DNA of 64,000 bases, taken from positions 7,679,001 through 7,743,000 of the forward strand of contig NC_135258.1 in the NCBI RefSeq assembly GCF_964204865.1, in the 5' to 3' direction. Below, one piece after another: positions 4,166 through 51,485 of the stretch. A model generated the notes under the pieces. The model had not been told where the DNA came from. It searched no databases and saw only the letters and a program-made list of their open reading frames with translations. Positions within the stretch are counted from its first letter, which is position 1; every line of letters begins with the position of its first letter. The DNA is from Styela clava (lineage: Eukaryota; Chordata; Ascidiacea; Stolidobranchia; Styelidae). The translations under genes and the position numbers were made by a program.

Positions 4166-4395
4166 GTCCTATTAATCATCTATTTTCTTCCGACACTAAC
4201 AGAACTCATTTTGTCATATAATATAAATTCAGTCTGGTCAATTTATATTAAAACTGGAAGCCAACGCAGTGGGATAATAATTCAAAACAAAAAACAAGGC
4301 GAAGAAAATTATTATTTGATGAAATATCAATACTAGCTGATTTGTAATCTAGAAAGTCAATCCATGGTCTGATGTTATACAGTGGTTAGAAATTG

Positions 4396-7337
4396 TTAAA
4401 TTGGTCGAATTTTCATTTCTGTGAATTTGAGAGAATAATAGTATTCCTTCCAGCTGCGCCATACCAAGCCATCTGCGAATGATTCTTGAACTCCGCTTTG
4501 GAAATAATGACCGTTTAAATTGCTTGCATGGCAGTTTGTGTACCACCAAGCCCCTTTAAAAGAAACCGCGCAATTCCCAGAATGTATATCGTTGTCTTGA
4601 TCTTTAGTCGAAAATCTATGACCGTTGTGGCCACTCAAAGAATCTCCCGCGTCTCCAGTGTATCCTCCAACGGTGAGTGCATATTTCGATTTCGGTCCTC
4701 CTACTTTGAAGTTTCTGTGAAATTAATGCCGATGTTTAGGCTTCAAGATACAATTAAGTTATTCATATAAAGCAGGGATGTACAAGGGCCACAACCCGAC
4801 CATTTAGTGTGGCCCTTATGAACACCCCCCCCCCCCCCCCCCATGAAGCATAAAATTCTAATCCGACAGTTTATGTTAACAGGTGATATTAACGAACTAT
4901 GCAGGAACTCAAATTTTCAATTGTCGCACTCTAAAATGTTAAATGAATAACATTTTTCATTGTGTGAACTTTTTAATTGTTGTGTTCATGAAAAAGTCTA
5001 TTTTTTTTTCGTGGCCAGGCTAGTTAGGCTGAAGTTAGTTATATGGCCCACCGACAAAAAATGTTGCACACCAATGATGTAAAGTAATCGAATGACTCTT
5101 ACGAATATTTCGCATATTTCCTATTTCCTTCCCAATCTTCTAAATCGATACGAAGTTCGTAGTCATTATCACGAGTCAGACGATGAAGATTTTCCAGGCC
5201 TTATAAATAGTTAAAATATTGAATATATGAATTAACTTATTTACGACATCCTTTTGGAAATTTTCAAGACTTACCAAACCAAAATTCATCATCTTTGTTT
5301 CCAAATCCATTTACATATTCATTCCAAGTTCTATAGAAATCCGTTGAGCCACTTGAACGTCGTTGGAAAACCTCAAGAAAAGTAACTACATTTGATAATA
5401 GTAACGTGGCAACCTCATACATCCAGACCATTATTATTAATAACTAGGCTTTAATAGACCCATTACCAGCTAACATACAAAGACGGCCTATATAACTGAA
5501 CAGCATTGGCGTATCCAGGGCATGGTCGACATGGCGCAGTTTGGACAGGGGCGCAAAAAGACGACAGTCTTAATCGTAAAATGTTTTAACAAATTTAATT
5601 TCAAATTGAAAATGTTTAAAACTCGTGTGTTTTTAGTGAAATATAGTTACATACAAGTATCAGTCGTTAAATTGTAAGTCAACGATTAATGGCACGCATT
5701 TTAAAATCTTGCATGCGCGTTATTTTACGTATACGCCACTGCTGAACAGAAAACCAAATGGCAGACATTTGCAGATAAGACTCATTAATCTAGATTAGAA
5801 AGACCAGGATAAGTAGTAATTTACGGTAATAATCATAGGCATCTGGGGAAGATTAACAAAATACCCAGTAAAACAAATATCAACGCGAACACACAATGAA
5901 TTGCAATAATGTATTGTTGTGAACAATGTAATTCCTCACCATCCAACCCCCACCGTCAGTTGTTAGATCACAGAATACTTCAAGCTTTGAGTAAGATGGG
6001 TAAATATCAAAAACTCCACCGGTTTCATTCCAAATTTTCGCATCATTCTTAGTCACTTTTCCACAGTCGGAAAAAGTTAGAGGTCTCAATTCTGTCATGA
6101 GAGAATTGAATAATTCAATTTTAGAGTGAAAAAATGAAAAGCTATCAATAATATAACAATGCCTGTTTTAAAATGAAGACACTACGACTGTCGACAGCGG
6201 TCATCGAAGCACAAATTACGCGAATCACATGAATAAAACTGAGATTGTGAACTACCTTCATAGACCCGCGTTTTGGCGTTTATCTACCCTTCGTAAGTGG
6301 GTAACTGCCATGCGAAGTTAGTTACAGATATCGGTATGAAAATCCACTTCCAATATTATATGAAACAACAATGGTTAAATTGATTCAAAACGCCGAAAAG
6401 TTGGAAGAAGTATGATTGTATTTACTTTCAGTCGAATAGCCGAGTGGTCTAATGAGCCATACTCAAGAGTCGTCCATTTCACCTTGACAAGACTTAGCTT
6501 CTCTGCAGCGTCTGCGGCTATGATTATTTTGAATACAAACCTTGAGCCACACGAATCAATTCTGAAAATTTTCTTTCTATCTCAGATGTGTTGTTCAACA
6601 TCTTTTCCTCAATGTTGGTCATCTTGGTTTTGAAACGAATCTCCATTGCTGTAATAGTAAACAATCTTTCAGAGCTAACTGAATTCAAAGAGCATCTTTG
6701 ATGTGGCCTGCACCAAGGGGAGGGGTATAGGATCAGTCGACCCGGGAAACACACTGTAGGGGCGAGTTCGTTTCTTATTTAACTAATAATACAAACATTT
6801 ACCTATTATTTGGCCTATTTTTGGAGGTATGTATGAGAGCCATCATTATCAGAAACTTGCCCTGGGAACCAGAAAAGTTTGACACGATCCTGCCTGCTCC
6901 TAATCCAGATCTATCACATAAAGCTGTACCTTATGATTGGCGAGGGCGCGCTTCAAATACTTCTCCTCAAAAATCGATCGCAATTTATAAGCCTAATGTA
7001 TGCTTTCATGTAGTGTTTTATACTTTATTGCCTACACTCAAAACCAACACACTTCCTATAGTCCGCAATATGCGGTAGTACACGACTTACCGTTGAATTT
7101 CTTTTGCATTTCCTGTTCTATCTTTGTATAGTTAACTATGCCTGGTGGTCCACGTGGTCCCGCTTTACCAACTCGCCCTGCATGAGCATGGTCTGGTCGA
7201 GAATTCGAGAGTAATGTGACCTGTCTTGTACAATATTCATGCATTTGATAAACTTGGGAACAAAGACCATCGTCAGGCAATGAATCGGTCATTGAAATCA
7301 GACAAATAATCAACATTGCAAATGAACTATTTACCAT
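4396..7337 (-). CDS. Secreted fibrinogen-domain lectin (ficolin-like), FREP-1
   Basis: Six exons on the minus strand: 7337-7091, 6648-6541, 6091-5940, 5371-5275, 5199-5103 and 4714-4396. All have GT-AG borders and join in frame to 339 aa. Residues 1-19 form a signal peptide ([19 protein letters not shown]). C26 and C36 could link subunits. Residues 54-68 are a very short Gly-X-Y run ([15 protein letters not shown]), and 69-118 form a coiled-coil neck. From about 120 comes a full fibrinogen C-terminal domain with DCG, TDGGGWM, the calcium-site motif KDQDND and the family signature [13 protein letters not shown], so four conserved cysteines are present. Known ficolins and tachylectins bind acetylated sugars outside the cell and act in innate recognition; that role is inferred here. 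The short collagen run is unusual for a true ficolin, so 'fibrinogen-related protein' is the safer name. The reading frame stays open upstream of the chosen ATG to 7445, so a longer N-terminus is possible. Confidence 0.88.
4773..5076. mobile_element. hAT MITE in lectin intron 5, copy 1
   Basis: The left end CAGGGATGTACAAGGGCC and a right end reading GTTGCACACCAATG are inverted. The flanks atataaag (4765-4772) and atgtaaag (5077-5084) match at 7 of 8. It contains a long C run at about 4826-4843. It is shared with copy 2. Confidence 0.7.
5504..5741. mobile_element. hAT MITE in lectin intron 3, copy 1
   Basis: The left end CATTGGCGTATCC and right end ACGTATACGCCACTG are inverted repeats. They are flanked by a perfect 8-bp duplication, ctgaacag (5496-5503 and 5742-5749). 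The same insertion sits in copy 2. Confidence 0.8.
6431..6474 (+). pseudogene. tRNA-Leu 5'-half-like fragment in lectin intron 2, copy 1
   Basis: The stretch beginning gtcgaatagccgagtggtct resembles the 5' half of a leucine tRNA: A-box like TAGCCGAGTGG and an anticodon arm containing tactcaaga. No 3' half, B box or matching acceptor strand follows, so it is at best a truncated relic or a chance match. Copy 2 has the counterpart at 18534-18577. Confidence 0.25.
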
Positions 7338-7543
7338 GCTGTATCGTTTGAACCCTAGATAAGTCATAATGCTAGAAAAATCACAAGAGTTTGTTATATT
7401 TTCGAATAAAAATACTAAATATAATATATACATCATACTTAACAAAAATATAAAGTCGTAAAAATACGATCTTAAAAATAGAATAGGAAACTTTTATTTT
7501 TCTCCACGCACAAAAACTGAAACAAGGCCATACTCTATCTAAA

Positions 7544-7726
7544 CAGGGCTTTTCAAACTGGCGATTTTGACATTCCGGTAGCAAAAAGGCTAAGATCGTG
7601 ATAAAATCTTTTTCGACACTAAGTTATGTTTAAACCAAGATTGGATCATTTGTGCGAAAATATGCAAGAACTCAATAAAAGTTTGGCCATGCCAAGTGGG
7701 TCGCAATGAAAAAATGAAGAACACTG
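7544..7726. mobile_element. hAT MITE upstream of FREP-1
   Basis: Left end CAGGGCTTTTCAAA and right end reading AAGAACACTG, with flanks tatctaaa and ttctaaac. The longer counterpart in copy 2 (19675-19927) has the cleaner flanks atctaaac and ttctaaac. Confidence 0.6.
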
Positions 7727-9747
7727 TTCTAAACTAAAGCAAGTTTTACTAGCTATTCAGATGATTTATATATTATATAGAACTACTGATAGATCTTCAG
7801 ATATTTATTGACCCTTTGAATATTTATTGTAATAATAACTCGATCATTATGTGATATGTTGAACAATATACGAGGCGTTGCGTTTATAGCTTTTGTTTTA
7901 AATCACTTTCGTTTTTCATTTATTTGTATTACTCCATGCTTTGAATGACGACGATTTTATATTCAGGCCAACGAAAAATACGTACATATACTTTCGTCCA
8001 GCGTATTGTACCACACACAGCATTTAAAACTAGGGAAACCTACTAACACTGATTGCTACGTGATAATACGCCTTCTAACTAAAAATTAGGCGTCATGGTT
8101 TTAAGAAAACGTATTTGCTGTCTACGATTAAGATGAGAAAGTCAACAAGCCAAAGTGGATGGAAAATTCCCATATATTTGAGATTGGAAAAGATCGGAAA
8201 ATATCTGACATTTCACGGTAGTTGTTGTACTATTTATTACATTGATTAGAATTATCTTCAACTAAGTTAAACAACTTGAACTATGCATTTACGGTCAAAT
8301 AACGATTAAATTTGATTATGTTATACTAACAGCATACTAATACAAACTCATAATGCGGCAGACCAGCCGATTGTTTTACTGCAGAACTTCATTTGGAACA
8401 AACTGTACCGAGTCTAATATATGATTATAACTAACAAATTTCTGATGTGAAATTTTAAACCAGATTATATCGATGTAACAGATGATGTCACGAAAACCGG
8501 CCTACAAAGAATAAATTCATATTTATTCTGCATTTCTGTAACAGTAAGATTTTGTGTGTGGTTGACTTTAATAACAATAATAGGTGTCATTCGAAACATT
8601 TTATATAAATAAACAGAACACTAGTCTATCTTCTTGTTACCGTCAGTTTAAATTATTATGTTGTGACGGATAGGAACCAAGACGTATTGCATGCAGATAG
8701 CGCGTGTGTGACGAAAAAGGTTGATCGATTTATAAGGGCTTTTGCACTTGAAAACATTTTAAACTTAACCAGACCCCTACTTCATCTTCAATTACAGTCA
8801 TATAAGAACAAGTAAAAAGACGTTTCAATTTAAATACCGCGATATCTATTTTATTAATCCAAATTGGTAAAAAAAAAAGTGTCCCAAGTTTTTTGGGTAA
8901 CTGGAATTGGTCCTTGGACTAAAGTTCGTGTTCTTGCTCTAACACGTGGCCAACTAAATATCAATATGGCACAGGTCAACACTTCTTGCATCAAAAATAT
9001 ATTTTCTCGTTTTCAGCGAAGCTCAGTTGCAAAACACTGCATTATAGATTATGACGTCATATGTGTATTTAGATTCAGGTGCATACATGCGTGAATATTT
9101 CTCACTTCCAGTTCTCTGACCAAAATGAACTCCACAAAAACGTAGGAAATGCGTTTTCAATATGAAGATTCGCACGCTTGCCTTGAAACACTCACAATAT
9201 TATTATATTCTATTTTTGTTACTTTAAAATATAGTTAATTTTTCTCTGTACTCTATTTTTTGTTTATTTTCCTTATTGTTCGTGATAAAGACACTAAAGA
9301 CAATATACATCGACGATGAACAATTCCATACCGACTAGAGATCAGCCATTTTTCATTATTGGTAATTGCATCGGTATCGTCAAAAAATAAATACAGACGT
9401 TAAAACCTATTGCATTTATTTGGAATGGTCGAAGTTTCGTAGCAATTATATGTGTTCCGATGCATTCAGTTTCTATTATTTGTTTTTAAACTCGTGTTCT
9501 CGCTCATTTCTCACGCATAAAACACCCGCTTCCGTTAAATGTCACCGAGGTCAGAAGTTTGCATCAATTTCCCTATAATCTCATCGTCAAATAATAGTTT
9601 CAGTTACATGATTAAATTGAAAGTAGAGATAACGCAATAAAAAGTAGCATAGCATAACTTTTGTATTTTCAAATATATATATGCAGTGAGACAACAACTA
9701 TTATGACAATGTATTACTGCGTGTTGCATGTCAATTATAAAATAACA
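7727..9747. other. Intergenic region upstream of FREP-1
   Basis: No exon with coding character was found on either strand. The region aligns with 19928-20570 and 22546-24100 of copy 2 with growing divergence, and presumably includes the lectin promoter. No clear TATA box or other site could be assigned. Confidence 0.5.
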
Positions 9748-9803
9748 AGAGAGCGATGCTCAAATATATGGGCACGTAGACCAAACGAAGCAGTAGTCTA
9801 CTT
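9748..9803 (+). repeat. Dispersed repeat 'Z', left part, split by the nested hAT
   Basis: Begins acaagagagcgatgctcaaa, like the copies at 29267, 41046 and 59143. It is interrupted at 9804 by the hAT composite and continues at 12809. Confidence 0.6.
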
Positions 9804-10407
9804 CAGTGGTTCCCAAACTTTTTGTACCATCGCCCCCCTACATTAGTTTATACAACTTCATCGCCCTCCGGCACTACAAAAAAAAAATTGAAAGTTTGAA
9901 ACGATTATATTACAGACCAAATAAGGAGACAAATCATAGTTTATAATGTTTTTAATGAGATGGATGAGCTTGGTGTTTCTGAGCGAGTTTTTTATTATTA
10001 TATCTAAAATTACCCCGTTTACTGATGGGAAGGCGATTTAGTTGTTTTGATAGCAATAGCAGCACGGCTGAAAATCCATCTTTCACCATATCAGAGGTCG
10101 GAAATGAAAGAATCCAGGGTTCTACCTCCTCAAAAACCGCCGTGTACTCTTGCATTCAACTCACCAAATTCACCCCATTCCACATTAAAATAATGAAAAA
10201 AAAAATGAATTTTCCAAAACTCATAATAATGATTTTCGTACATCTCATTCATTCCTACGGCCTGATGACCTTCACCAAAATACATGATATATAACGATCT
10301 TCGGTAAAATTCATCCCTGATTCCTCATCCTACCACGTCCTCCAGTCCGATCACCAGTTCATAGAATTAATCAGCCATTTGTTTTGGATTTGTGGACTCG
10401 GATGGTC

Positions 10408-12567
10408 CAGGGGTCGGCAAATTTTACGTCGCTCGCGGGACAAAATTTTTGGTATTCTTTTGCGGATCGCATATATTTTTTGAAAGTTGAAAACGGAACA
10501 TCGTGCGAAAACTGCGACAATTCGTGAACTCAACTCAGTCGTCTTAATAAAAAATTATTACAACGACGTTCAATGTGACACTGTCCTGTTTCTGCATCAC
10601 GCTTGAGCATCACGACGCCAAGATTGGAAGATTTTCTAAATGGGCATCACTAATCCTAGTTCTTTGCTTGTTCTTTGTAATGTTCTTTTCGAAAATAATT
10701 GTTCACATAAATATGTACTTCCAAACACTGAAATGAATATTTTCGCATGGTTTGTGAAATTTTGATAAAGATTTTCTTTAAGAAGATACATTCTTACAAA
10801 TATTAAGCAGTGATGAATCTCTCGAATAGAATATGAATCCTATTTCCTTATTGCATTGCAATATATTCGAATATTTACTGCGCTATTGAACCCCTGCACT
10901 CAGCATCAACTTTCCTGCGTGTTTCTATTTGTCTAATTATAATTAAATTGTAGGCTCGTTAAACGAGTAGCTGTTCAATATAATTTTTAGGATATAATTA
11001 AATTTAGTCTAAACGTGTCTCACGATAAATTATGTTACGTAAAAAAATGTAATTTACTCCTAGAGCGTAGATAATAGATAAAATTAATTCATCGTTAAAA
11101 CCGCCGTTTGGATGTTTCCCCTGACATAGACTTCCTTGTTTACTCGTAACATTGGCCAATCAGCAAGATGCAAAAATATACGTAACAATGCCCCCTTTCG
11201 CATCCACTCAGACAGACTTTCAGGCGTGGTCGTGAACATTACCTCATTTTCGCGATTTTGAATTATATTCGTTAGTTTTTAGTTGTTTTTCGGAAATTTG
11301 AATAAAATAAGTCAACGATCACCTTGTCCTCTTAGGACAGTGGTTCTCAACCTGTGGTACGCGTACCACTAGTGGTACGCGGGAGCTTTTCAAGTTGTAC
11401 GCGAGCAGATTTCAATTATTGCAACAATTAACCTTTCAATTGGCTAAAATATACCGGCAACGCTTTATCTTCCTTACTGTATGTATTCGCTAAACAGCGT
11501 TTATGGATGTTTCCCCAAGCATCAGTTTCCTTGTTTATTTCCGTAACTATATCCAATCAGCAATAAGTCAACAATGACGCAACTCGTAACAATTGCAATT
11601 TCTGCGCTCAACCGCTCAGACACTTCTGTCGCTCGAGCAGATATTCGAGCATGGTTGCAAACATTACCTCGTTTTTGTAGTTTTGAGTGATATTTGTCAG
11701 TTTTCAGTTGTGTTTCAAGAAAATAATAGTGAATTAATTAACTAAATTGTCATTATGCCTTCCGCGGAGCTTTACTTTAGTTGCAGTAATCGAAATTGAA
11801 TCTCGCAAATGCTGCGATGGACAAGGCTAAACTTAGCCATATCAGTACCTGCAAACGGCACATGGTTGATTAATTTTAATAAAAATTATGGTTTCAAACA
11901 CGTGAACCAGTTTATAAGCGCCAACATACCAAAACACTCTCAGAATAAGCATAAAGTTTGCAATAGTAAAGTATAAGAGTAATTTTTCCAGGGTCAATGA
12001 TCGGGGAAACGTCTATAGTGTTGGTGCGCTATCGGTCCTTGTCTTTAGAGATTGCCTTTGCCCGCTATACCTCAATAAATGAAGCGATATGGACATGTTT
12101 TTGTTTGTTTTGCACAAAGGATGTAGTTTAATAATATAAAATACACACATAGCATGTTCCTTGTGTCTCCCTCCCCCCGCCAAAAAAGAAGCTTTTTCGG
12201 TGGTACGCGGCCATAGTAAAAACAGTAAAGTGGTACGCGGTCAGTAACAGGTTGAGAACCATTGTCTTAGGAGATTCAGTTTAATTACAGTAATCAAAAA
12301 TTAGTGTAGAAATAGCTGTGATAGACTAGGCTAAAATTATTTACCGGTACTTTCAAAAAACATATTGTTGAATGGTATGAATTAGAATGATAGTTTGAAA
12401 CAAATACTTCATTTTATATAACAACTCGCGAAACCACTCTTAAAATAAGCACCGAAATTTTTTTAGAATGGTAAAGTATGGGAAGAATTATTCGGGGTCG
12501 AAGGTCGGGGAAAGGTCAATTTAGTGAAGCGTCCCGGGCCAGATTACTACAGATTTCCCGACCACTG
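10408..12567. mobile_element. Middle nested hAT layer inside element A
   Basis: The left end CAGGGGTCGGCAAATTTTAC and the right end CAGATTTCCCGACCACTG are inverted. Without the innermost insertion it is about 1.22 kb, the same as the matching layer in element B (37478-38701). The flanks ggatggtc and ggataccc agree at 5 of 8 bases, so this insertion is old. It contains the shared hAT core sequence. Confidence 0.75.
11338..12264. mobile_element. Innermost hAT element, perfect 8-bp target duplication
   Basis: The ends are CAGTGGTTCTCAACCTG and, inverted, CAATGGTTCTCAACCTG (one mismatch). A perfect duplication tcttagga flanks it (11330-11337 and 12265-12272). Subterminal 'gtggtacgcg' repeats occur at both sides. 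It is absent from element B, so it inserted after A and B separated. No transposase ORF. Confidence 0.88.
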
Positions 12568-12808
12568 GGATACCCAAACTACCGTACCTTGCTGCGAAGA
12601 CGAGTCCAGCAATCCTTTCGCGTGTGACATCGTCCACGTGATTTGTACCTACGAAATCACGCAGAGTACAGTAATCAAGTGCACGATGCGCCGAACAAAA
12701 ACAGGTTTTGCGAAATCGCTCCCCTATCGCCTCCTTTGACTTTTTCGCCCCCCTCTGTATCGTTTTCGCCCAACGGGGGGGCGATATCGCCCACTTTGGG
12801 AATCATCG

Positions 12809-13060
12809 CTACCTTACCTTTAACAGTACCGGTGCCCCAAACCATTGAAAACTTACGAATTTCGCTTACCAAGAATGCGCAGAATCAAAACGGACAAACG
12901 GTGTTCCCATGAATAAAAATAATACAGCCTTCTAGCGGAAATTACAGTCTTTAACCAGCACTGAAAATTTCAAAGCAATTGGAAGCATAAGAATACTAAC
13001 AAGAACAACAACAACATAATACAAAAACGACAGTCATGTCCATTTGGTGTACAACAAATC
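12809..13060 (+). repeat. Dispersed repeat 'Z', right part
   Basis: Continues the repeat broken at 9803: accggt-containing stretch, then aaatttcaaagcaattggaa, then an acaagaacaacaacataata tail. The same order occurs at 29267-29650 and 41046-41458. Confidence 0.55.
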
Positions 13061-14344
13061 CTTTTGCTAACCCTGGGATTGCTTATATTATGCTTGAAGA
13101 ATATATTTATGTACAAATATGAGCCTCAGTGGGATCACGAATACTTTGAGGGATACAATATTTCACGCATGTTACGTACAATTACGTCTCATGCGTAAGG
13201 GAGACACACCTTGCCAAAAAGAGTATCAAATTGGTGAAGTAGTATTTTACTGATACCAATTATGTTATCAAGGGCGCAGAGGTCTAACATAGATCTTTGA
13301 AAATTTTCAATCCATATAAAGTGTTACTGTTTTTATTTATTAAAATATTATTATGACGTGGAACGTACGTAATAATATTTAAATATTGGAGATTAATAAC
13401 ATTTTGATCACTATTTCAAAAAACAAAATAGTGATAAATAAACTTTTATCATATTAAAATATATTTAATCTATGAAAACGCGAAATTAGACAACCACAAA
13501 AATAATATGGTGCCATGTTTTTCATACACCGAACGTTAATCCACGTAGCTCAAATATTTGGGACATTCTCGTTTTACGCATCAGTTTCCAAAACTAATAT
13601 TTTTTTTTATTGTTTGACGTAGCTCAAATCATTTTTGACATTTTTGTTGTGCGAATCACATTTGTATTTGATATTTTGTAAAACAATCATATATTCAATG
13701 TTGTTATTTTAAGTCGTTCATTGAAAATTTATAATTAAAAAGTTTTTAACCTTTCACGAGAATAGATTCATCAATATTATTAAACCAAACTTGAGTTAGT
13801 ATATTTTATAAGTTATACTTGGATAACTTCCTATTTTGAAATGTTTTTGAAATTTTTCAAATATTTTATGATAACAAAACTCAAAAAATGTATTTTTCCT
13901 AACCTAATGAAATTTTTTCAAATATTTTAGTTTCTGGTAAACTTTGATTTAAGTAGACGTGAAATGAAAGCAAGATGCATTTTTACTGGAATTAACATTT
14001 GCAATTTGTATTTAAGTTTATTCTCCTAAGTCCTAAACACTGGCATGTTATTTAACTTCGTAATCATACAACTACGTAAGTTTTCCCGTTATAGGCGTCA
14101 AAGTTACTTCAAGAGCGCATGGTGACAAATATTACGCGGTTTCAAGTTATCGTCATCAATAAAAAATGAATTATTACATCACTGTGGTTCTGATAATTGG
14201 CATATTTTAGTGACTAAATATATTTTGAAAATTTATGTTTTCACTTTATTGTTGAAACTGTGTCACTGATACCAATAATAAAATTTGTTAAACGATTATT
14301 AACGTATAATTCGATAATTACAAACATCTTTCTAGAATCTAGAC

Positions 14345-15653
14345 CAGGGATGTGCAACAGGCGGCCCACTTTTCCCCCATCAAGCATAAAATCCTCATCT
14401 GATTTTTGCGCTTGTCGCCGCGTTGAATCTTTCGCCGTTTCCCACGTGACTATTGGAAGGGTAAGTGATAGCCGCATTCTCTTCTGGTTGTTGTCGCTCG
14501 GGTTGCCGCTAATTTTTTAATTCGCTGCTAATCTCACTGCTAATATTTTTTTGTGGGAATGTTGGATAACATATACTGTAATATATATATATATATATAG
14601 AATGGTTTATTAGGATTTTATACGAAAAGTTTTGTGATATCAACAGCTCGTATATGTTAAGAATAAACACATCTGCAATTTGTCCAAAGATCGCCAACGG
14701 TAAATGGAGCTTTCCATATTATCAGCATTTGCCCTCAAGGAATGATTTAATAAAGAAGGATGAAGGTTCTGGAAGGCTATTGTAATTATTATATATGTCC
14801 ATAAAGTCCCATTTTTTTAAGAATTGCGAAGAGAATTTCATCGATATCATATATGGTTTTGACCCTTATTAAATGAAGTTAAAATACTTAAACAATTACT
14901 GATTATAATACAACAGACCTGATTAAGATATATTGAGAACTGACTTCATAACAATATTGAAGTTGAAAAGGAACTTCATGGACACCCTGATATATTTTTT
15001 CTCTCTTCGAGTTTAACTATGAATCTCGATATAAAGAAAATTTAGCCGTTTTTTTCGAATATTGCTTTGGCAACAGAACAGCCCGACATATTGCACGACA
15101 AAGTCGGCAACCAATGCTAACCGATATTGATGTGAATTGCTGCAAAGGCGGTACTTGATTTGCAATTTTATTTTAATTTTTATTTGCATTTTGAAGATGT
15201 TTTTTTTTTATCCTATATGCTTCAATGCTATATTTGCTGCTGTAATACAGCAACAAGGTGTCGCTGACTGTATGACTCATTGAGTCTTCCGCGACCCCGT
15301 GTCAATTGCTATCAATCAATGTTGTTCTCGTTTTATTAGTTTACTGTGTTTTTCTTTTGCGTTCTATTGATTCTTGCATGGCGAAATAAAATATCTGAAT
15401 CTGATTCTTTTAACCACGCTTGAATATCTGCCTGAGCGAAAGAAGTGTCGGAGCGGCCGAACAACATGTAATTGTCGCGTCGCTTATTGCGCCTATTCGG
15501 TCATTGTTACGAAAATACACAAGGAAATCGATGCTCGAGAAAACATGAATTGCCTGTAGAGGCGGGGATTTGGTTTGCATTTCGATTGACCAGATAGCGG
15601 ATTGTAGTGCAAGTGGGATAACTGCCGCCAGTAACTGGGCCTCCGTGTCCATA
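14345..15653. mobile_element. Candidate hAT element, copy 2 counterpart
   Basis: Same element as at 692-2002, carried along in the segmental duplication. It keeps the CAGGGATGTGCAAC start and the right flank tactagag (15654-15661). Confidence 0.45.
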
Positions 15654-15661
15654 TACTAGAG

Positions 15662-15945
15662 CAGTCATTTTCAACCAATTTGGTTGAGCAGAAGCCAGTA
15701 GGCTCGGGGAAACCCTGTACAATAGTTTGATATTTTGTTATTGTCTGAATTGTGAATTACACAACAATAAAATCAGACCAAAGCAAGCGAATCAAAATGA
15801 ACTTCAAAGTGTTGCAAGTTTAATACGGGTGGCAAATCTAAAGGTATTTGATTATATTTAAACAATAAAAACATACAGATTTTCAATTTGAATGAAATCT
15901 CCCGGAAGTCCAGACATGCCGCTGAATTCCGGTTGAAAACCAGTT
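15662..15945. mobile_element. hAT MITE, copy 2 counterpart
   Basis: Counterpart of 2011-2291 with the same flanks tactagag and tattagag, so the insertion predates the duplication. Confidence 0.6.
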
Positions 15946-16451
15946 TATTAGAGCACTGCTGTACTATTTAATTGATTTTTTCAAACTTCAACTTTGAAAA
16001 ACAAATGTTTACAGAAGAATAACGTAAAGTAAATGACTAATTAAGGATATTGCGGCCACTCATAAGAAAGCCTTTATGTGAATATGATCCCTATGTCTTT
16101 AATTTGTTATATATATATATATAATTTGTTATCCTAATATAGTTTCAGTCTGGTCTATGTAAGTTGGAACTGTAAACGGGCGAAGTTAGAAGGTATCCAA
16201 AACGAACAAAAACAACACAGAGAATGTTTAATCATCTATTTTCTTCCGACACTAACAGAACTCATTTTGCTATATAATATAAATTCAGTCTGGTCAATTT
16301 ATATTAAAACTGGAAGCCAACGCAGTGGGATAATAATTCAAAACAAAAAACAAGGCGAAGAAAATTATTATTTGATGAAATATCAATAATAGCTGATTTG
16401 TAATCTAGAAAGTCAATCCATGGTCTGCTGTTATACAGGGGTTAGAAATTG

Positions 16452-19400
16452 TTAGATTGGTCGAATTTTCATCTCTGTGAATTTGAGAGAATAATAGTAT
16501 TCCCTCCAGGTTCGCCATATCACACCATCTGCGTATGATTTTTTAACCCCGCCTTTTAAATAATAACCATTCAAATTGCTTGCATGGCAGGCTGCGTACC
16601 ACCAGGCCCCTTTATACAGAACCGCGCAATTCCCAGAATAGGTATCGTTGTCTCGATCCTTAGTCGTAAATCCACGACCGTTGTGAGCACTCAAAGAATC
16701 TCCCGCGTCTCCCGTGAACCCTCCAACGGTGAGTGCATATTTCGATTTCGGTCCTCCTATTTTGAAGTTTCTGTGAAATTATTGCCAATGTTTACACTTT
16801 CAAATACAATTAAGTTAATCATATAAAGCAGGGGTGTGCAAGGGCTACAACCCGACCATTTAGTGTGGCCCTTATGAACACCCCAAATGAAGAATAAAAT
16901 TCTAATCCGACAGTTTATGTTAACAGCTGATATTAACCAACTATGCAAGAACTCAAAATTTCAATTGTCCTACTAAAATGTTAAATAAATAATATTTTTC
17001 ATTGTGTTAACTTTTTAATTGTTGTGTTCATGAAAAAGTCTATTTTTTTTCGTGGCCAGGCTAGTTAGGCTGAAGTTAGTTATATGGCCCACCGACAAAA
17101 AATGTAGCACACCAATGATGTAAAGTAATAGAATGACCCTTACGAATATTTCGCATATTTCCTATTTCCTTCCCAATCTTCTAAATCGATACGAAGTTCG
17201 TAGTCATTATCACGAGTCAGACGATGAAGATTCTCCAGGCCTTATAAATAGTTAAAATATTGAATAAATGAAATAACTTATTTCTGACATCCTTTTGGAA
17301 ATTTTCAAGACTCACCAAACCAAAATTCATCAACTTTGTTTCCAAAACCATTTACATATTCATTCCAAGTTCTATAGAAATCCGTTGAGCCACTTGAACG
17401 TCGCTGGAAAACCTTAAGTAAAGTAACTACATTTGAAAATAGTAACGTGGCAACCTCACACATCCAAACCACTATTATTAATAACTAGGCTTCAATAAAT
17501 CTATTACCAGCTAACATACAAAGACGGCCTATATAACTGAACAGCATTGGCGTATCCGCAGGGCATGGTCGACATGGCGCAGTTTGGACAGGGGCGCAAA
17601 AAGACGACAGTCTTAATCGTAAAATGTTTCAATAAAATAATTTCACATTGGAAATAATTGAAACTCGTGTTTTTACTGAAATATGATAATATACAAGTAT
17701 CAGTCGTTAAATTGTAAGTCAACGATTAATGGCACGTTTTTTAAAATCTTGCATGCGCGCTATTTTACGTATACGCCACTGCTGAACAGAAAACCAAATG
17801 GCAGACATTTGCTGATAAGACTCATTAATCTAGATTAGAAAGACCGGACCAATAAGAAGAAATTTAGGGTAATAATCATAAGCGTTGAGGGAAGATTAAA
17901 ATAATAACCAGTAAAACAAACTTTAACGTGAACACACAATGAATTGCGATAATGTATTGTTGTAAACATAGTGATTCCTCACCATCCAACCCCCACCGTC
18001 AGTTGTTAGATCACAGAATACTTCAAACTTTGAGTAAGCTGGGTAAATATCAAAAACTCCACCGGTTTCATTCCAAATTTTCGCATCATTCTTAGTCACT
18101 TTTCCACAATCGGAAAAAGTTAGAGGTCTCAATTCTGTCATGAGAGAATTGAATAATTCAATATTAAAGTGAAAAAATGAAAAGCCATCAATAATATAAC
18201 AATGCCTGTTTTAAAATGAAGGCACTACGACAGCGGTCATCGAAGCACAAATTACGCGAATTCCATGAATAAAACTGAGATTGTATTTTAAATTGATGGT
18301 CTCCAAGCATCAGTGGAACAAATAAAAAAAATTTTCAATACTGATCAACCGTAGCTACCTTCATAGACCCGCGTTTTGGCGTTTATCTACCCTTCGTAAG
18401 TGGGTAACTGCCATGCGAAGTTGTTTACAGATATCGGTATGAAAATCCACTCCCAATAATATATGAAACATTAATGGTTAAATTGATCCAAGACGCCGAA
18501 AGGTTGGAAGAAGTATGATTGTGTTTACTTTTAGTCGAATAGCCGAGTGGTCTAATGCGCCATACTCGAGAGTCGTCCATTTCACCTTGACAAGACTTAG
18601 CTTCTCTGCTGCGTCTGCGGCTATGATTATACAAACCTTGAGCCACACGAATCAATTCTGAAAATTTTCTTTCTATCTCAGATGTGTTGTTCAACATCTT
18701 TTCTTCAACATTGGCCATCTTGGCTTTAAAACGAATCTCCATTGCTGTATAATAAATAAATATTTCAGAGCTAACTGAATTCAAAGAGCATCTTTGATGT
18801 AGCCTGAACCAATGGGAGGGTCATAGGGGCAGTCGACTTGGTAGCACACTGTAGGGATGAGTTCGTTTCTTAGTTAACTAATAATACAAACATTGCACTA
18901 TTATTTGGCTTTTATTTTTGAAGTTTGATATATAGGCGATCATTATCAGAACTCGCCCTGGGCAGCAGAAAAGTGTAGCACGATCCTGTCTGCAACCCAC
19001 CGAGCTCCTAATCCAGATCACATAAATTGTACCTTGTGGTTGGCAAAGGCGCGCTTTAAATACTTCTCAAATATCGATCGCGTTTATAAGCCTAATGTAT
19101 GGAGTGCTTACACTCAAAGCCAGTATTAGTACCGGTTGAGCCATAAAATCCGAGCAATTTATTGACGGTGAGTCATATTGTGCGCCCTATGGTCCGCAAT
19201 ATAAGTTAGTAGCCTACACAACTTACCGTTGAATTTCTTCTGCATTTCCTGTTCTATCTTTGTATAGTTAACTATGCCTGGTGGTCCACGTGGTCCTGCT
19301 TTACCAACTCGCCCTGCGTGAGCATGGTCTGGTCGAGAATTCGAGAGTAATGTGACCTGTCTTGTACAATATTCATGCATTTGATAAACTTGGGAACAAA

Positions 19401-19473
19401 GACCATCGTCAGGCAATGAATCGGTCATTGAAATCAGACAAATAATCAACATTAAAAATAACTTATTAACCAT
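16452..19473 (-). CDS. Secreted fibrinogen-domain lectin (ficolin-like), FREP-2
   Basis: Six exons on the minus strand: 19473-19227, 18744-18637, 18134-17983, 17412-17316, 17240-17144 and 16770-16452. Their lengths (247, 108, 152, 97, 97, 319) equal those of FREP-1, again giving 339 aa with no break. The signal peptide is [19 protein letters not shown]. The short Gly-X-Y run, the neck and the first half of the fibrinogen domain are nearly the same as in FREP-1. Exon 6 is strongly diverged: 24 of 106 residues differ, including WWYAAC for WWYTNC and many changes in the loop after the NLNG motif. The calcium-site motif is KDRDND. It probably recognises a different ligand from FREP-1; this is an inference. 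An extracellular innate-recognition role is the family expectation. No expression signal could be judged from the sequence. Confidence 0.88.
16829..17117. mobile_element. hAT MITE in lectin intron 5, copy 2
   Basis: Counterpart of 4773-5076 with the flanks atataaag and atgtaaag; it lacks the long C run. Confidence 0.7.
17545..17781. mobile_element. hAT MITE in lectin intron 3, copy 2
   Basis: Counterpart of 5504-5741 with the same perfect ctgaacag duplication (17537-17544 and 17782-17789). Confidence 0.8.
18534..18577 (+). pseudogene. tRNA-Leu 5'-half-like fragment in lectin intron 2, copy 2
   Basis: Counterpart of 6431-6474, with tactcgaga in place of tactcaaga at the anticodon position. 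No 3' half was found. Confidence 0.25.
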
Positions 19474-19674
19474 GTTGTATCGTTTTTGCCCTGGATAAGT
19501 CATAATGCTGAAAAAATCATGAGAGTTTGTTATATTTTCGAATAAAAATACTAAATATAATATACACATCATACTAAATATGAATTCGTAAAAACACGAT
19601 CCTAAGAATATAATAGGAAACTTTTATTTTTCTCCACGCACAAAAACTGAAACCAGGCCATACTCTATCTAAAC

Positions 19675-24460: not shown

Positions 24461-25530
24461 GTACGTTACGTATAATTAAGTCTTAAACATAAGGGATACA
24501 CAAGTTTCCAAAAACCTTAAGAAAAAACATACATCGGTTTCACCGCTTCGAATATTTGAGTTTATTGATAACAATTATTTTATCACGGACACAGAGGTCA
24601 ATCATAGATTTATGAGAATTTTCCGTACATTTAAAGTTTTAATTGTTTTTGATTATAAAAATATCATTATGACGTGACACGGACGTAACAAATACTTACT
24701 TGGTTCAATTTAAATATTGAAGCTTAATAATATCTTATTTACGGCGATTTTTTTAAAACAACAAAATCGTTCAGCGCTAAATAAACTTCTACCATATTAA
24801 AATATACCTTATTAGGTAACCGCTAAATGTCACAATCACATTCCCAAAATATTTTATCCCTTTTTATTTTGTTTTAATTCACCGAACGTTAATTAACGTA
24901 TCTCAAATCATTTGTGACATTTTTGTTTTACGTATCAATGCGGATTTGATGTAAATCAATCATTCATTTGCTCGTTGCTCTATTATCCGTTCATTGGAAA
25001 TCTATAATTAAAAAGTTTATACATTGCTTGAATTGATTTATCAATATTATTGAAACAAGCTTAACTTGATGTAAGTTACAAGATATACTTAGATGGCTCC
25101 ATATTTCAAAATGCAGTTTGAATTTGGAGTGTGTGCCTTAATTGTCCAAATGTTTAATGAATAGTGGTGAAAACAAGAACTCAATAAATATATTCGTGGT
25201 AATTGTATAGATTTGTTTTACAATTGCATTAGTTTCACATTATAAAGTTTATTTTATTGAAAACAAAATGATTTTGAATCATTCGAATTTTGCTGGAATT
25301 ACCTTTCATGATTTGTATTTAATTTTATGACTGACGTATTGACAACGTCGTAGTTGTCACAGTCACAGCATAAGTTTCTCACGTTATAACTTATGAGCGT
25401 CAAAGTTACGTCAAGAGCGTACGGTGACAAATATTACGCGGTTTCAAATTATCGTCACCAATAAAAATTTAACTATTGCGTCATAGTGGTTCTGATAATT
25501 AGTATAATTTAGTGACTATACCTATATATA
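24455..25530. repeat. Third, older partial copy of the duplicated unit
   Basis: The block 24455-25530 follows 13150-14225 in order but with roughly 20-25% mismatch by eye. Shared landmarks include the stretch around 24880-24960 matching 13530-13670 and the stretch at 25390-25515 matching 14100-14220. Homology stops near 25530 before any lectin exon, so this copy is truncated. Confidence 0.7.
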
Positions 25531-26165: not shown

Positions 26166-29100
26166 TCATTCATCTTGTCTTAACTCATCTTCAGAATAAT
26201 TCGGTTTATGTGGCCAATATTTATGACCTTCAAGAAACCTGGAAAAAGTTGGAAATGATCAAAATTAATTGCGGACAAAAACTCAATTACATTTCTATCT
26301 TTCTATTCATTGAACGAACTGAAATGAGGTTTTTCTCCGTCATATTTGTTACATGAACTGATTAGATGTGGTAAACAAGGAATTAAATAGCATCTAGATC
26401 TATATACAAAGTTGAAAAACATATGCAAACGAATTAGAATGTGATTTATAAATCACAAGAGTATCGTATACCATGACTGCTTTAGCTAGAGAACCCAATT
26501 CAAAGAATTCGTGGTTCATATAATTATTCTGCCGGATGGAATCTTGATTTCCTGCGGTGTCAGCGCCAAAACGAATGTCGCGATATCTCATATGTTGTTT
26601 CGATTTGACTGACATTACATGCTGAGTTATTTTGCACAAAGTGTAGAATCGTAATTTTCAGACATGTAACTCGTATTTTAAACAACCTCAATAAATTTAA
26701 TAGATGCGAGACAAAACGTAATACCAGACTTAGGTTTAAGTCTGGTATCTGAACGGCCCCCCTTACCATTTTAAACAATTAATTAATTTCTAACCTAAAT
26801 ATAATTGTATTGGAATATACCGAAAGTCGCGTATATACATGGTCAGTCAAATACATCAGTCACAAAAAGTTTTATTGCTAATAGCAAAATATCTTCCACC
26901 CACTACATTTCGACATAAAAAAAAAAAAGAACAAAAAGATGGAAAACATACTGCATGATACCAACGTTTAACAGTCTCCGGTCAAAATATATAATATAAT
27001 AGTATAATAACGTTAAAAATATTTTACCATTTTAAGTCAAAAGCTCTCCAATCTTTGTTCAAATCATAGATCAATTCCATTTCTTCATCACTTAATTCGA
27101 AGTCATAAACCTAAAGTAGATCATGATTTTTTGCGAAGGGGAGCAGAAAAATGGAATAAGATAAGTAAAGAATACAATTCCGAATCTTACTTGGAAATTA
27201 CTTTTTAACCGGGATTCATGTGAGCTGTTTATAACCGCCCCTATTCCCCTTTGTATTTGAAATCGAATCGCTATGTGCGCAATGGTTTTTTCTCGTTTTT
27301 CTGCAATTGATTTCAACACCCGATCTTGTCGAAGGATTGGATCATGTATTGTAGGCCTAAATAGAAATGAGTACGCCATATGCATTAACTTAATAGTATA
27401 TTTTGAGGAATTGATTTTTAAGGCCTCCTAACCGCGCTTGTAACTCAAAATTTATTTCTTCTCTACTGCAATTGTGATCTCTGTGATAACTTGTCTTGTT
27501 CTAGAAGGAACTTTCCTTAGGTAGACCTTGCAGTCTTGCCCGCCTTTCAATTATATCTCATTATTATTGTTTGTTTGTTTATTTTTACTGCAATATGTAC
27601 TTATATGTAACGAAATATTCGGAAATAAACCATCATCATCATATACTAATAGAGTACTAAAATTATAATCCATTGTAATAATCTAAAACGAAATTAAAGT
27701 CTCAAACTCTCAATTAAACTACATAAACGTATGTAAGTCAAAAATTTCGTGTAATAACAAAGCAATGTTATTACATGAGAAAAAATGCATGGAGTTCAAT
27801 GGCCCGTTGCTATGAATTTTTTCCCGACCTTTGTCCCCCGTGTAGAACTTTTTCCCGACCTTTGACCCTCGAGTGTTAGAGTACTAAAATTATAATCCGT
27901 TGTAATAATCCAAAAATTCTAGTATTAGACACCCCAACAATAACAATGCAATGTTATTACATGAGATATGAGGCATGGAACTCAATGGCCCGTTGCTATG
28001 AACTTTTTCCCGACCTTTGACCCCCGAAAAATTTTCCCTATACTGTACCATTGCAAAATTTTCGGGGCTATTTTAAGAGTGCTTTTGCGAGTTGGCGCCT
28101 GTATAATGGGGTATGTGTTTCAAACCATCATTAGGATTCATTGCATACAACAATCTGTTTTTTAAAAGTACCGGTAAAGAATTTTAGCCTAGTCTATCAC
28201 CGCTATTTCTACACTAATTTTTTATTACTACAATTAAATTAAAACTCCTAGGAAAACAGAGTGATCTGATCATTGAATTATCTGATTCATATTTAAGTTT
28301 CCGAAATACAACTGAAAACTAACGAATAGAGTTCAAAACGCGAAAACGAGGTAATCTTTACGACCACAATTGAAAATCTGTCTGAGTGAGAAAAATGTTT
28401 GAGCGGATGCAAAAAGGAAGCATTGTTACGTCACTTTTTGCATCCTGCTGAATGGCCAATGTCACGAAGTAAACAAGGAAGTCGATGCTCGGGGAAAGGT
28501 TCATTGCATTTCCCTCGTATACATTTAAATCATGGCTCCATGCTGCTCAATGAAATATTTATGCGCAATCCAAACTACTCAAGCGCTTCTGCTTTTATTT
28601 ATAAACTTCCTAACGCAGAAAATGATGTTCCACGCAAATAGGTAGTGAGAAAAATGACATGAAATTGACACAGTCCACTTAAAGGGAAACTCTCGCCGGA
28701 TGTAACGGAATTCTCTAAACTCACGGAACCCCAATAATTGTTTTGGAAACCCTAGGATTCGGCGGAACCATGGCGATAAAATTACCGACCTAATATATAT
28801 AAATACAAGCAATAGCCCAAAGTTTCCAAGTTCACACTTTAATAGTAATCAATTCACTTTTTGTATAAAAAATAAACCTACTTTTTCCTTCTCTTTGATC
28901 CAAGAACTCCAAATGCCATAACAGCGATCCCGTTATCTTTGCAGAACTTCACCATATTTCTATCAGTCAAGTAAGGATGTGATTCAGTCAAGTGAACAGC
29001 CGGTTTAATCGAGCATTCTTTTAATATTCGGTTAATCTGGTACTTGTTGAAATTTGAAACTCCGATGCTTCTGACTAAACCATCTTTCTGCAACTTTTCC

Positions 29101-30817
29101 ATCTCCTGTATTTGGTATAATAAGAGACTTATTTATGGTTTATTGAAAACAGACTGTTAAAAACTATAGTATTTACCTTCCACGTATCAACATAATGAAT
29201 TTCGTTATTGTGACGATAATTTCCGTCTTCATCGACTGGTGTTAAATCGTTTGTTTTCTATATCAAAAACAAGAGAGCAATGCTCAAATATATGGACACG
29301 AAGACCAAAACAAAGTACAACAGTATCAAATCTCTTACAGTACCGGTAGCCTTCCTTTTATAGAAACTCATGAATTTGCTGTCCATCGAGATCGCTGAAA
29401 TGCGATTTAGGACCTCCACAGGACACCACCATGGTGTTATCATACAAGACTTGGAAGTGAAAAACGGATTCCATAGAACCAACGGAAATTTTTAAGAAAA
29501 TAAAAGTAATATAATTCGACGGAAAACAACAATCTTTAACCACTGAAATAAATTGTTTCAGTAATGACAAAAGCGAATTTTTCATAACCATAAGCAGACA
29601 AATACCAACAAGAAAAATAGGAAGAACAACAACTTAATAAAACAAAACTTTGTGCCCAATAAAATGAGACCATAGTTACCGGCATTGCACAGGGAATATG
29701 CAATAAAAATGCATCCAAATAATCAGTTTGCAAGTTGTTTAAGCTTTGCATAAATCCTTCTCTGACATCATTTGGGTGGTTGAATTGGCACCAGAGCTGA
29801 GAATACAATATTACAAATATCATATAATGCTATCTTGCATTACTCGCGATTTATTTGAGAACATGGACCAGTTTCTCACGGTCGTTTAATTAAACTAAAC
29901 GCGATGTCGTTTAAAATTAGTATTATATGCGTGGAAAAACGGGCACTCCAGAAGTGTGTGTACCAATACGGAGGGAACTAATTTTGTTGGCCTACTTTAC
30001 ATCAAGTTGTGCAAAGGGACTGAAACCTAGATGGGTAGGGGACATATTCGTTCGGCTAACACAGACAGTCCCCGAACTAATATACTTAAAATAAGGAACA
30101 TCTGAATAAAATTATGGCCTAACCCTAACCATACTACCGGAGTACCGAATAGTATTATATGTGTGGAAAAAAGATCATCAGTAAATCACTGTTACCTTGC
30201 TAGTCAGATACATATTTTCTCTTTTTACTTTTCCTTCATTGTACACATCTTGCAGAGTATCTCCGATCACATTTTCGTTTCTGTAAAACCACGCACAGTC
30301 TATGTGTCGATATCCTATTCCAATAGCTGTTCGAATCAAACTCCTAAGATCCTCATCCTGTGCAATACAATGGCATATTACATCGAAATACTATTGTAGA
30401 CCATATTGACCTATGTACTGTAGGCCAGGGTTTTCCAAATTGGGGTCCTCGGACCCCTGGGCGTCCGTGATAACTGCACAGGGGATTCGCAACGACCTAC
30501 ATGTGTGCGACAGTCTTTTCATCTCTCACCAATATGAAATGAAACATTGTCCTCCCTCGATAGTTAGGCACAAAAATTATTACGGCTCAGGATGGGGATT
30601 TCCCAGAAATGCTGCTGTAGGCTACTAAACTAGTGCTACTCATCGATACAACGATTCATCAGAACAATTCGGAGTTGAACTTCGTAATCAAAAATAACAA
30701 AAGAATAACTGACTCCGGAAATATTGCAATACCCTATAGCCTACTTACTTTCCACGTTCCAAGTGCCATTGCCGGCATCTTATATCCTGTATTCAAGGTT
30801 ATGAAATCCATGTCCAT
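26166..30817 (-). CDS. Aldo-keto reductase AKR-1, diverged cofactor site
   Basis: Eight exons on the minus strand: 30817-30749, 30357-30196, 29796-29680, 29257-29177, 29105-28882, 27356-27191, 27110-27028 and 26238-26166. They join in frame to 324 aa. This is a cytosolic (beta/alpha)8 oxidoreductase of the AKR superfamily, which reduces aldehydes and ketones with NADPH. The catalytic tetrad is present as D43, Y48, K77 and H110. The usual cofactor contacts are altered: L182 where AKR-2 has Q, F208 where it has Y, and N261 where it has K; S160, N161, R267 and N271 remain. The exon 5 donor (GTAGGT) is weaker than in the sister genes and overlaps an in-frame TAG, so mis-splicing would truncate the protein. 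An AATAAA lies about 25 bp past the stop (26142-26137). It is either a neofunctionalised enzyme or an early pseudogene. Confidence 0.83.
27650..28035 (+). repeat. Local tandem duplication in AKR-1 intron 5
   Basis: The sequence agagtactaaaattataatc starts both halves (about 27651 and 27877). Both halves continue through caatgttattacatgaga, then tcaatggcccgttgctatga and tttttcccgacctttg. The unit is about 225-235 bp. Confidence 0.6.
28010..28500 (+). repeat. Shared hAT core sequence in AKR-1 intron 5
   Basis: Runs from tttttcccgacctttgaccc through aattttagcctagtctatca to aacaaggaagtcgatgctcg. The same order appears in elements A and B, in the hAT at 44459 and in AKR-3 intron 5 (61315-61800). 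No terminal repeats were seen here, so it is a decayed insertion. Confidence 0.55.
29267..29650 (+). repeat. Dispersed repeat 'Z' in AKR-1 intron 3
   Basis: Begins acaagagagcaatgctcaaa followed by tatatggacacg, and ends in a region rich in aacaacaac. It starts about 10 bp beyond the exon 4 acceptor. Unclassified; SINE-like or MITE-like. Confidence 0.6.
29940..30145. mobile_element. Palindromic MITE 'P' in AKR-1 intron 2
   Basis: Left side cactccagaagtgtgtgtac, right side catactaccggagtacc. The interior resembles 24230-24460 in inverted orientation. Confidence 0.55.
30428..30625. mobile_element. hAT fragment in AKR-1 intron 1
   Basis: A hAT-like left end CAGGGTTTTCCAAATTGGGG with the subterminal tcctcggacccctggg. 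No convincing right end, so it is probably truncated. Confidence 0.45.
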
Positions 30818-39311: not shown

Positions 39312-39319
39312 CATTAGAC

Positions 39320-51464: not shown

Positions 51465-51485
51465 CTTTATAGTCTTCCATAACGT

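Follow-up and report, generated by a model that had tools for sequence, protein, structure and literature searches.

A 64,000-nucleotide stretch of the genome of the ascidian Styela clava (contig NC_135258.1 of assembly GCF_964204865.1, positions 7,679,001 to 7,743,000 of the forward strand; hereafter the window, which is C10:7679001-7743000 in a 376.6 Mb assembly of 379 contigs) carries two tandem ficolin-like lectin genes, FREP-1 and FREP-2, whose parts are of mosaic age, with an older exon 6 standing between younger flanks. The interpretation favored here, to which we assign a probability of roughly one half, is that the pair keeps two specificities on a shared scaffold, where exchange between the copies homogenized much of the rest of the gene and the older divergence of exon 6 was maintained against conversion.

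Both genes lie on the minus strand of the window and are intact, each with six exons joined at canonical splice sites and a reading frame open over 349 amino acids. From its N-terminus, each protein consists of a leader that looks hydrophobic by eye, a run of three Gly-X-Y triplets, a stalk, and a single fibrinogen domain, which matches PF00147 (Fibrinogen_C) over positions 4-220 of the 221 in the profile (E 4.5e-72 and 9.2e-73). In FREP-1, exon 1 (7091-7367) contains the start codon, the leader, and the triplets GKA GPR GPP; exon 2 (6541-6648) encodes the stalk, which appears coil-like by eye; and the fibrinogen domain begins in exon 3 (5940-6091), followed by exon 4 (5275-5371) and exon 5 (5103-5199, placed by its splice sites and frame). 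The last exon, exon 6 (4396-4714), starts after the acceptor ag with AAACTTC, ends at the stop codon TAA, and encodes the P domain with the calcium loop and the acetyl pocket. The corresponding exons 1 to 6 of FREP-2 are located at 19227-19503, 18637-18744, 17983-18134, 17316-17412, 17144-17240, and 16452-16770, the last of which is the divergent island. The span of 4396-16770 given for the pair in the first-pass annotation holds all of FREP-1 and only exon 6 of FREP-2, of which exons 5 to 1 occupy 17144 to 19503. A tblastn search across the window detected no FREP exons besides those of the two genes.

When the two genes are aligned, the differences on the 5′ side amount to 99/951 bases upstream, 14/277 in exon 1, 98/435 in intron 1, 6/108 in exon 2, and 22/435 in intron 2. 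In the middle of the gene, they amount to 3/152 in exon 3, 49/565 in intron 3, 3/97 in exon 4, 5/75 in intron 4, and 1/97 in exon 5. On the 3′ side, the values are 26/373 in intron 5 (4715-5102 in FREP-1), 40/319 in exon 6, 5/224 in the 3′ flank (4172-4395), and 38/2427 in the downstream flank. The earlier counts for exons 3-5 (7/346 bases, 3 residues) and for exon 6 (40/319 bases, with 24 residues among 105 whole codons) were reproduced, and the intermediate divergence that had been ascribed to the introns beside exon 6 holds for intron 5 (7.0%) and not for the 3′ flank, which reaches only 2.2%. Homology stops at 4172, and an automatic flank of 300 bp overran this limit (49/298); hence, flanks of 224 bp and, in the family comparison below, 200 bp were used.

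In the 2447-base alignment that begins at exon 2 and ends with the 3′ flank, the densest window of 319 bp is located at 4766-4448 and contains 46 of the 160 differences, a density matched in none of 10,000 permutations. The divergence peak therefore runs about 50 bp into intron 5. The total divergence of exon 6 exceeds that of intron 5 and the 3′ flank together (p=1.4e-4). In windows of 80 bases, exon 6 shows up to 14 and 15 differences, the 3′ flank 1-2, and windows wholly within intron 5 2-7; the windows of intron 1 and the upstream flank are likewise high.

The nature of the peak is seen in its synonymous sites. By the NG86 method, exon 6 contains about 25.8 nonsynonymous and 14.2 synonymous differences, corresponding to a nonsynonymous divergence (dN) of 0.112, a synonymous divergence (dS) of 0.250, and a dN/dS of 0.45, and the values in exons 3-5 are 0.011 for dN and 0.059 for dS. 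The synonymous divergence of exon 6 (14.2/66.7) is about 4 times that of the flanking bases (31/597, p=4e-5); relative to exons 1-5 (11.5/150), the factor is 2.8 (p=0.012). Because the synonymous divergence is raised and dN/dS is 0.45, the peak reflects a mosaic history rather than diversifying selection. The value of 0.21 raw, or 0.25 after correction, is similar to those of intron 1 and the far upstream flank (22-24% raw), as if exon 6 had kept the age of the duplication, like the oldest parts of the blocks.

Diversifying selection had been one of the two explanations offered in the first-pass annotation, and it is not borne out for this pair, for which dN/dS is 0.45 in exon 6 and the site model of the FREP subfamily, calculated for 7 of its 10 copies, gives a test statistic 2dlnL of 1.42 (p=0.49). 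It is very unlikely that selection on point mutations of exon 6, acting alone and in the absence of exchange, produced the island. The 24 residue changes, which are enriched in columns variable in other clusters, agree with such selection, as do the strongly positive results for the last exon in three of six hand-chosen sets (described below; null simulations stayed at or below 5.6), but the raised dS refutes it as the sole cause in FREP-1/2, since selection acting on residues does not of itself increase the divergence of synonymous sites. It is a live explanation in another cluster of the family, C6 (23.14-23.31 Mb), where several pairs have a dN higher than their dS and a dS no higher than that of the flanks.

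If exon 6 mutated faster than its surroundings, synonymous and nonsynonymous sites would be raised together, as is the case here. However, measured against outgroup paralogues, the FREP genes have a dS of 0.46-0.60 in exon 6 and of 0.47-0.69 in exons 4-5, with no excess in exon 6, so that a local mutation hot spot is unlikely, and in five other pairs of the family (L041/L101, L053/L054, L090/L091, L092/L093, and L099/L100) the synonymous divergence of the last exon lies below that of its flanks. We consider this explanation highly improbable.

The noncoding divergence between the blocks is strongly heterogeneous. It ranges from 1.6% between the downstream flanks of block A (1-2432) and block B (13654-16086), which are 98% identical, to 22.5% in intron 1, where the value includes a poorly aligned, gapped stretch at 34/80. 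The heterogeneity is significant at p=3e-67, and still at p=0.012 with intron 1 and the outer flanks excluded; the BLAST identity of the blocks drops to 76% upstream. The description of the blocks as recently duplicated was therefore too simple. Since the noncoding divergence is heterogeneous, exchange between the two blocks has most likely occurred. A simple recent duplication followed by acceleration of exon 6 was also considered and was ruled out by the mosaic noncoding divergence and the raised synonymous sites of exon 6. About 3.3 kb of junction sequence is repeated around the left edge of the window and between the genes, with an identity (95-98%) above that of the upstream flanks (76-86%).

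Conversion with another paralogue had been the other explanation offered, and its two parts fared differently: the signal of exchange is present in the raised dS of exon 6 and the mosaic noncoding divergence, whereas no donor was found that is closer than the partner. DNA-level searches of the 376.6 Mb assembly with each exon 6 gave 11 matches for FREP-2 and 18 for FREP-1, selves included, and none of them is closer than the partner gene. Self-matches aside, each exon 6 is most similar to that of its partner (87%), and the next matches are at 83-85%; after the partner come eight paralogues at 81-85%, on C10 (15.2 Mb) and C14 (14.4-14.5 Mb), and then weaker matches. The split uniting FREP-1 and FREP-2 was recovered in 100 of 100 bootstraps in both the exon 4-intron 4-exon 5 tree and the exon 6 tree (unrooted, ten genes). 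Import from a known paralogue is therefore without support. Three of the paralogues (C10:15222486, C14:14411559, and C14:14524292) are recognizable only in exons 4-6, each with a stop codon therein, and copies truncated in this way might serve as donors.

Alternatively, one gene may have had its exon 6 overwritten by a member of the array that is now lost, unassembled, or on another haplotype, with the rest of the pair being a younger duplicate. The array has evidently lost or moved blocks, because L022, just left of the window, carries the segment 12809-13653 at 95% identity (L022 9154-10000) and an older block edge remains as a relic at 24561-25518 (about 67-71% identity to 13246-14216). No adjoining FREP exon was detected at this relic in the window, and tblastn found none in the 10 kb of L022. 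A lost member could have been the donor, and an exon 6 dS above both flanks also agrees with import. On the other hand, the partner is the best match in the assembly, the exon 6 tree retains the pair with full support, and the changes fall on both lineages when polarized by the majority of six paralogues (21 derived in FREP-2, 15 in FREP-1, and 4 other), although this distribution would also fit a lost close relative as the donor. On balance, import is regarded as unlikely.

In the mechanism favored here, FREP-1 and FREP-2 would be tandem lectins of the secreted type, in which a leader is followed by a very short stub of Gly-X-Y triplets, then by a stalk, and finally by a fibrinogen domain like that of ficolins. 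Parts of the tandem blocks may have been homogenized by unequal crossing-over or by gene conversion between loci, which would have brought the 3′ flank, exons 3-5, and introns 2-5 to 1-9% divergence, and exon 6, with its calcium loop and acetyl-sugar pocket, may have retained the older divergence. Copies whose pocket was overwritten would have been selected against, and in this way exon 6 would have been spared and two binding specificities kept. The pair shows a feature of duplicates whose divergence is maintained against conversion, namely a divergence peak in a functional exon between noncoding flanks of low divergence. We infer that selection rather than chance spared exon 6; a selective reason is plausible because the same exon is positively selected in other clusters of the family, as described below.

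The last exon was then compared over the family. The genome contains at least 161 fibrinogen-domain matches, which are exon matches rather than gene counts and form a lower bound, since 150 of 718 first-look candidates were scored. The comparison used 82 last exons, 72 from family loci and 10 from the FREP subfamily; L034, for which no frame was found, was left out of the family tests. These gave 37 closest non-overlapping pairs, of which 5 without an alignable flank were dropped, leaving 32. The synonymous divergence of the last exon exceeded that of the flank in 23 of the 32 pairs (Wilcoxon p=0.0034), and the excess was significant in 9 (one-sided p<0.05); the total exon divergence exceeded that of the flank at p<0.05 in 5. 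Where both flanks could be aligned, an excess was found in 13 of 21 pairs, significantly so in 6. FREP-1/2 is the strongest single pair among the 32 (p=1.2e-4). Islands in the last exon are over-represented in the family and are not universal.

An earlier set of 12 hand-picked pairs besides FREP-1/2, superseded by the 37 closest pairs, comprised 5 with an excess at p<0.05 (2 of these against one flank only), one with p=0.06, and six with none, among which L092/L093 lies significantly below its flanks. L047 and L049, which have no stop codon, were dropped from the tests of hand-picked pairs and of columns and were kept among the 37 pairs. Within the FREP subfamily, C10_15215/C10_15222 differ at 0/37.7 synonymous sites in exons 4-5 and at 15/67.8 in exon 6, with 18/298 on the intron side and 101/270 on the 3′ side; because the latter is unalignable, this pair shows a step and not a two-sided island. 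The topology of exon 6 is rejected by the exon 4-intron 4-exon 5 alignment in the approximately unbiased (AU) test (p=0.0003). In cluster C6, the compared stretches of exons 4 and 5 are identical between L006 and L039, and exon 6 has about 20 nonsynonymous differences. Pairs with more than 0.35 synonymous differences per synonymous site (Sd/S) were left out of the listing of cluster pairs.

Two further features of the family were observed. Over 2.5 kb, L035/L036, located 16 kb apart, are 100% identical and L043/L044, located 44 kb apart, are 99.8% identical, which suggests very recent duplication, conversion, or assembly redundancy. At C19:5.33-6.08 Mb, fibrinogen-domain matches recur at a spacing of about 100 kb, as if a 100 kb unit of about three such exons had been repeated several times.

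Positive selection on the last exon was assessed by comparing site models M1a and M2a in six sets, which were picked by hand, with C14a and C10c pooled. The values of 2dlnL were 44.5 for C6, 36.0 for C14a+C10c, and 20.6 for C13; those for C10d (5.7, p=0.058), the FREP subfamily, and C18 (0.3) were not significant. The C13 set holds 7 of 9 members, and the 7 copies of the FREP subfamily include C10_15222 and C14_14406, both of which are pseudogene-like. The site-model code was custom, with naive site posteriors, and was checked by 72 null simulations for the three positive sets (25, 25, and 22), in which 2dlnL never exceeded 5.6; these simulations were without recombination, and recombination in the arrays could inflate the statistic. 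The earlier suggestion of an immune recognition lectin under selection fits part of the family, since a site class with dN/dS >1 in exon 6 is found in some other clusters. In C6, dN exceeds dS in several pairs, for example L037/L038 (27/268 against 3/65); L006/L046, with a ratio of 0.53, is a counter-example.

The columns that vary are shared to some degree. Column variability agrees between clusters with a median Spearman coefficient of 0.31, positive in 118 of 120 cluster pairs, where the largest median after shifting the columns was 0.04; such agreement would also arise from shared structural constraint. In the column test, which left out C14_14411, C14_14519, C14_14524, and pairs with Sd/S >0.3, 28 pairs were kept, and dN/dS was 1.39 (bootstrap 1.03-1.90) at the hypervariable columns, as defined from other clusters, and 0.22 elsewhere. 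Positions 287, 288, 295, 296, 307, 323, 331, and 336 (FREP numbering) come out as selected in two or more of the three significant sets.

The binding pocket was mapped through an alignment with FIBCD1, in which the FREP residue number is 244+q, and the pocket and calcium residues of FIBCD1 were taken from the part of PMC3908420 consulted here. On this mapping, 272 corresponds to Lys381 (Arg186 of TL5A), 289 to Glu398, 296 to Tyr405, 304 to Asn413 of the cis peptide, 305 and 306 to Cys414 and His415, 323 to Tyr431, 324 to Ala432, and 335 to Trp443, and 284 and 286 are the calcium aspartates. Hypervariable columns account for seven of the nine residues on the ligand side (272, 289, 296, 304, 305, 306, 323, 324, and 335; p=1.4e-4). 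Among the sites with a naive posterior >0.9, those belonging to the nine pocket residues number 7 of 17 in C6, 2 of 8 in C14a+C10c, and 1 of 6 in C13, and many of the remaining selected sites are their neighbors.

Between FREP-1 and FREP-2, 11 of the 24 residue changes fall in hypervariable columns, which make up 21 of the 105 columns (p=0.0009). The first-pass annotation had described the changes as clustered around the calcium site, WWYxxC, and the loop after NLNG; this holds only in part, with 9 of the 24 within one residue of a pocket or calcium position (p=0.11) and aspartates 284 and 286 themselves unchanged. Judged by alignment alone, the calcium-site aspartates and acetyl-pocket residues are present in both genes, with D284, D286, C305, H306, A324, and Y335 in common; at positions 296 and 323, FREP-1 has Phe and FREP-2 has Tyr. 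The differences most likely to alter binding would be those at 303-304, beside the cis peptide, and the Phe/Tyr swaps at 296 and 323.

Several results weigh against the proposal that selection kept two specificities in exon 6. Exon 6 is not the sole dense place, because intron 3 contains two 80-base windows with 13 differences each, and intron 1 keeps a high divergence with no obvious function; sparing is therefore possible in the absence of selection. FREP-1 and FREP-2 differ at just four of the nine mapped pocket residues (p=0.12), their dN/dS taken alone is 0.75 at the hypervariable columns and 0.34 elsewhere, and their subfamily shows no significant positive selection in the exon 6 site model. 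In the family, 23 of the 32 pairs lack a significant synonymous excess and 9 of the 32 lie in the opposite direction. The exon 4-5 tree is not rejected by the exon 6 data (AU p=0.13), and in C6 exon 4 itself varies among L035, L037, and L039, with 6.5-11.7 nonsynonymous differences per about 82 sites and 4.3-7.5 synonymous differences per about 20.

Much of this would be expected of a neutral mosaic, in which the exchange tracts missed exon 6 by chance and no selection was involved; the old intron 1 and upstream flank (22-24%), the dense windows of intron 3, the lack of a positively selected site in the FREP subfamily, and the 23 pairs with no significant island all fit it. Chance alone, however, does not readily account for a synonymous excess in the last exon that is commoner than expected over several clusters (9 of 32 pairs at p<0.05), nor for the enrichment of the differing columns among those variable in other clusters, and a neutral mosaic is judged unlikely. 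If maintenance of two specificities by selection is extended to the family, the last exon might be an exchangeable specificity cassette of a germline lectin repertoire, in which the scaffold exons are kept alike by conversion over many arrays and the pocket exons remain distinct. The pocket exons would then be under pressure to change at a fixed set of some 21 columns lying within or next to the acetyl pocket, and might even be shuffled between copies. This extension is speculative and is held with considerable doubt.

Other features of the window and the genome were also recorded. An LTR (long terminal repeat)-type retroelement occupies 51135-54580 on the plus strand, with a zinc knuckle, aspartic protease, reverse transcriptase, RNase H, and integrase spread over several frames. 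An aldo/keto reductase exon (PF00248, E 5e-15) is located at 61940-62269 on the minus strand, with similar stretches at 28897-29107 and 43437-43685, which suggests a second group of tandemly duplicated genes. The segments 9793-11337 and 12265-12805 have inverted copies at 37758-39322 and 37240-37765, respectively, at 87-88% identity, which probably stem from the insertion of a mobile element that separates the FREP blocks. Outside the window, a GH6 match was found at C9:16179895-16180164 (E 1.5e-6), which would fit a tunicate genome, because among animals GH6 is linked to tunicates; a COX1 search of the assembly gave no match.

Animals that lack antibodies need a means of keeping many recognition specificities. 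The locus and part of the family suggest that ficolin-like lectins can combine a scaffold that evolves in concert with a binding exon that diverges, and the eight recurrently selected positions listed above could be matched to ligands. From family membership, an immune function of FREP-1 and FREP-2 is likely. The motif VGKAGPRG is present in exon 1 of FREP-1, FREP-2, and the copies C10_15215, C10_15226, C10_15234, and C14_14519; its core GKAGP resembles the motif through which ficolins bind MASP proteases, and it could be a sign of a link to complement.

The closest matches among solved structures are ficolins for the whole of FREP-1 (E 5e-69) and FIBCD1 for exon 6 of FREP-2 (E 2e-36). Unlike ficolins, FREP-1 and FREP-2 have only three Gly-X-Y triplets and no collagen arm, and no collagen match was found for them in Pfam at E<=0.001. 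Their calcium aspartates, Cys-His pair, pocket Ala, and aromatic positions align with those of the FIBCD1 pocket, as far as it is described in the consulted part of PMC3908420; unlike in ficolins, FIBCD1, and tachylectin-5A, the pocket-side positions vary between paralogues.

In molluscan FREPs, one or two immunoglobulin domains precede the fibrinogen domain. FREP-1 and FREP-2 contain no immunoglobulin domain, PF00147 being their sole match at E<=0.001, and in this they differ from the molluscan proteins, as they do in that the variation described here is germline variation between paralogues. They share with the molluscan FREPs, which in Biomphalaria are fibrinogen-domain proteins of large diverse families according to the portion of PMC12074976 used here, the membership of a large and diverse fibrinogen-domain family. 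An island pattern in the last exon of a fibrinogen-domain family was not noticed in the titles and abstract openings returned by a literature search, and its absence from the literature is not claimed.

Divergence maintained under gene conversion is reportedly exemplified by RHCE/RHD (Innan 2003). Like RHD/RHCE and the human red and green opsins, FREP-1 and FREP-2 are tandem duplicates with similar flanking introns and one divergent functional exon. In the opsins, according to the section of PMC3924837 consulted, conversion keeps the introns alike and the divergence peak is located in one functional exon, exon 5; such divergence islands are also present in the GOT1 paralogues of a copepod, as given in the corresponding part of PMC3728101. 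Unlike in the opsins and RHD/RHCE, the excess in the last exon, known here from one genome, is found in several unlinked tandem clusters of one lectin family, some of which have dN/dS >1 in that exon.

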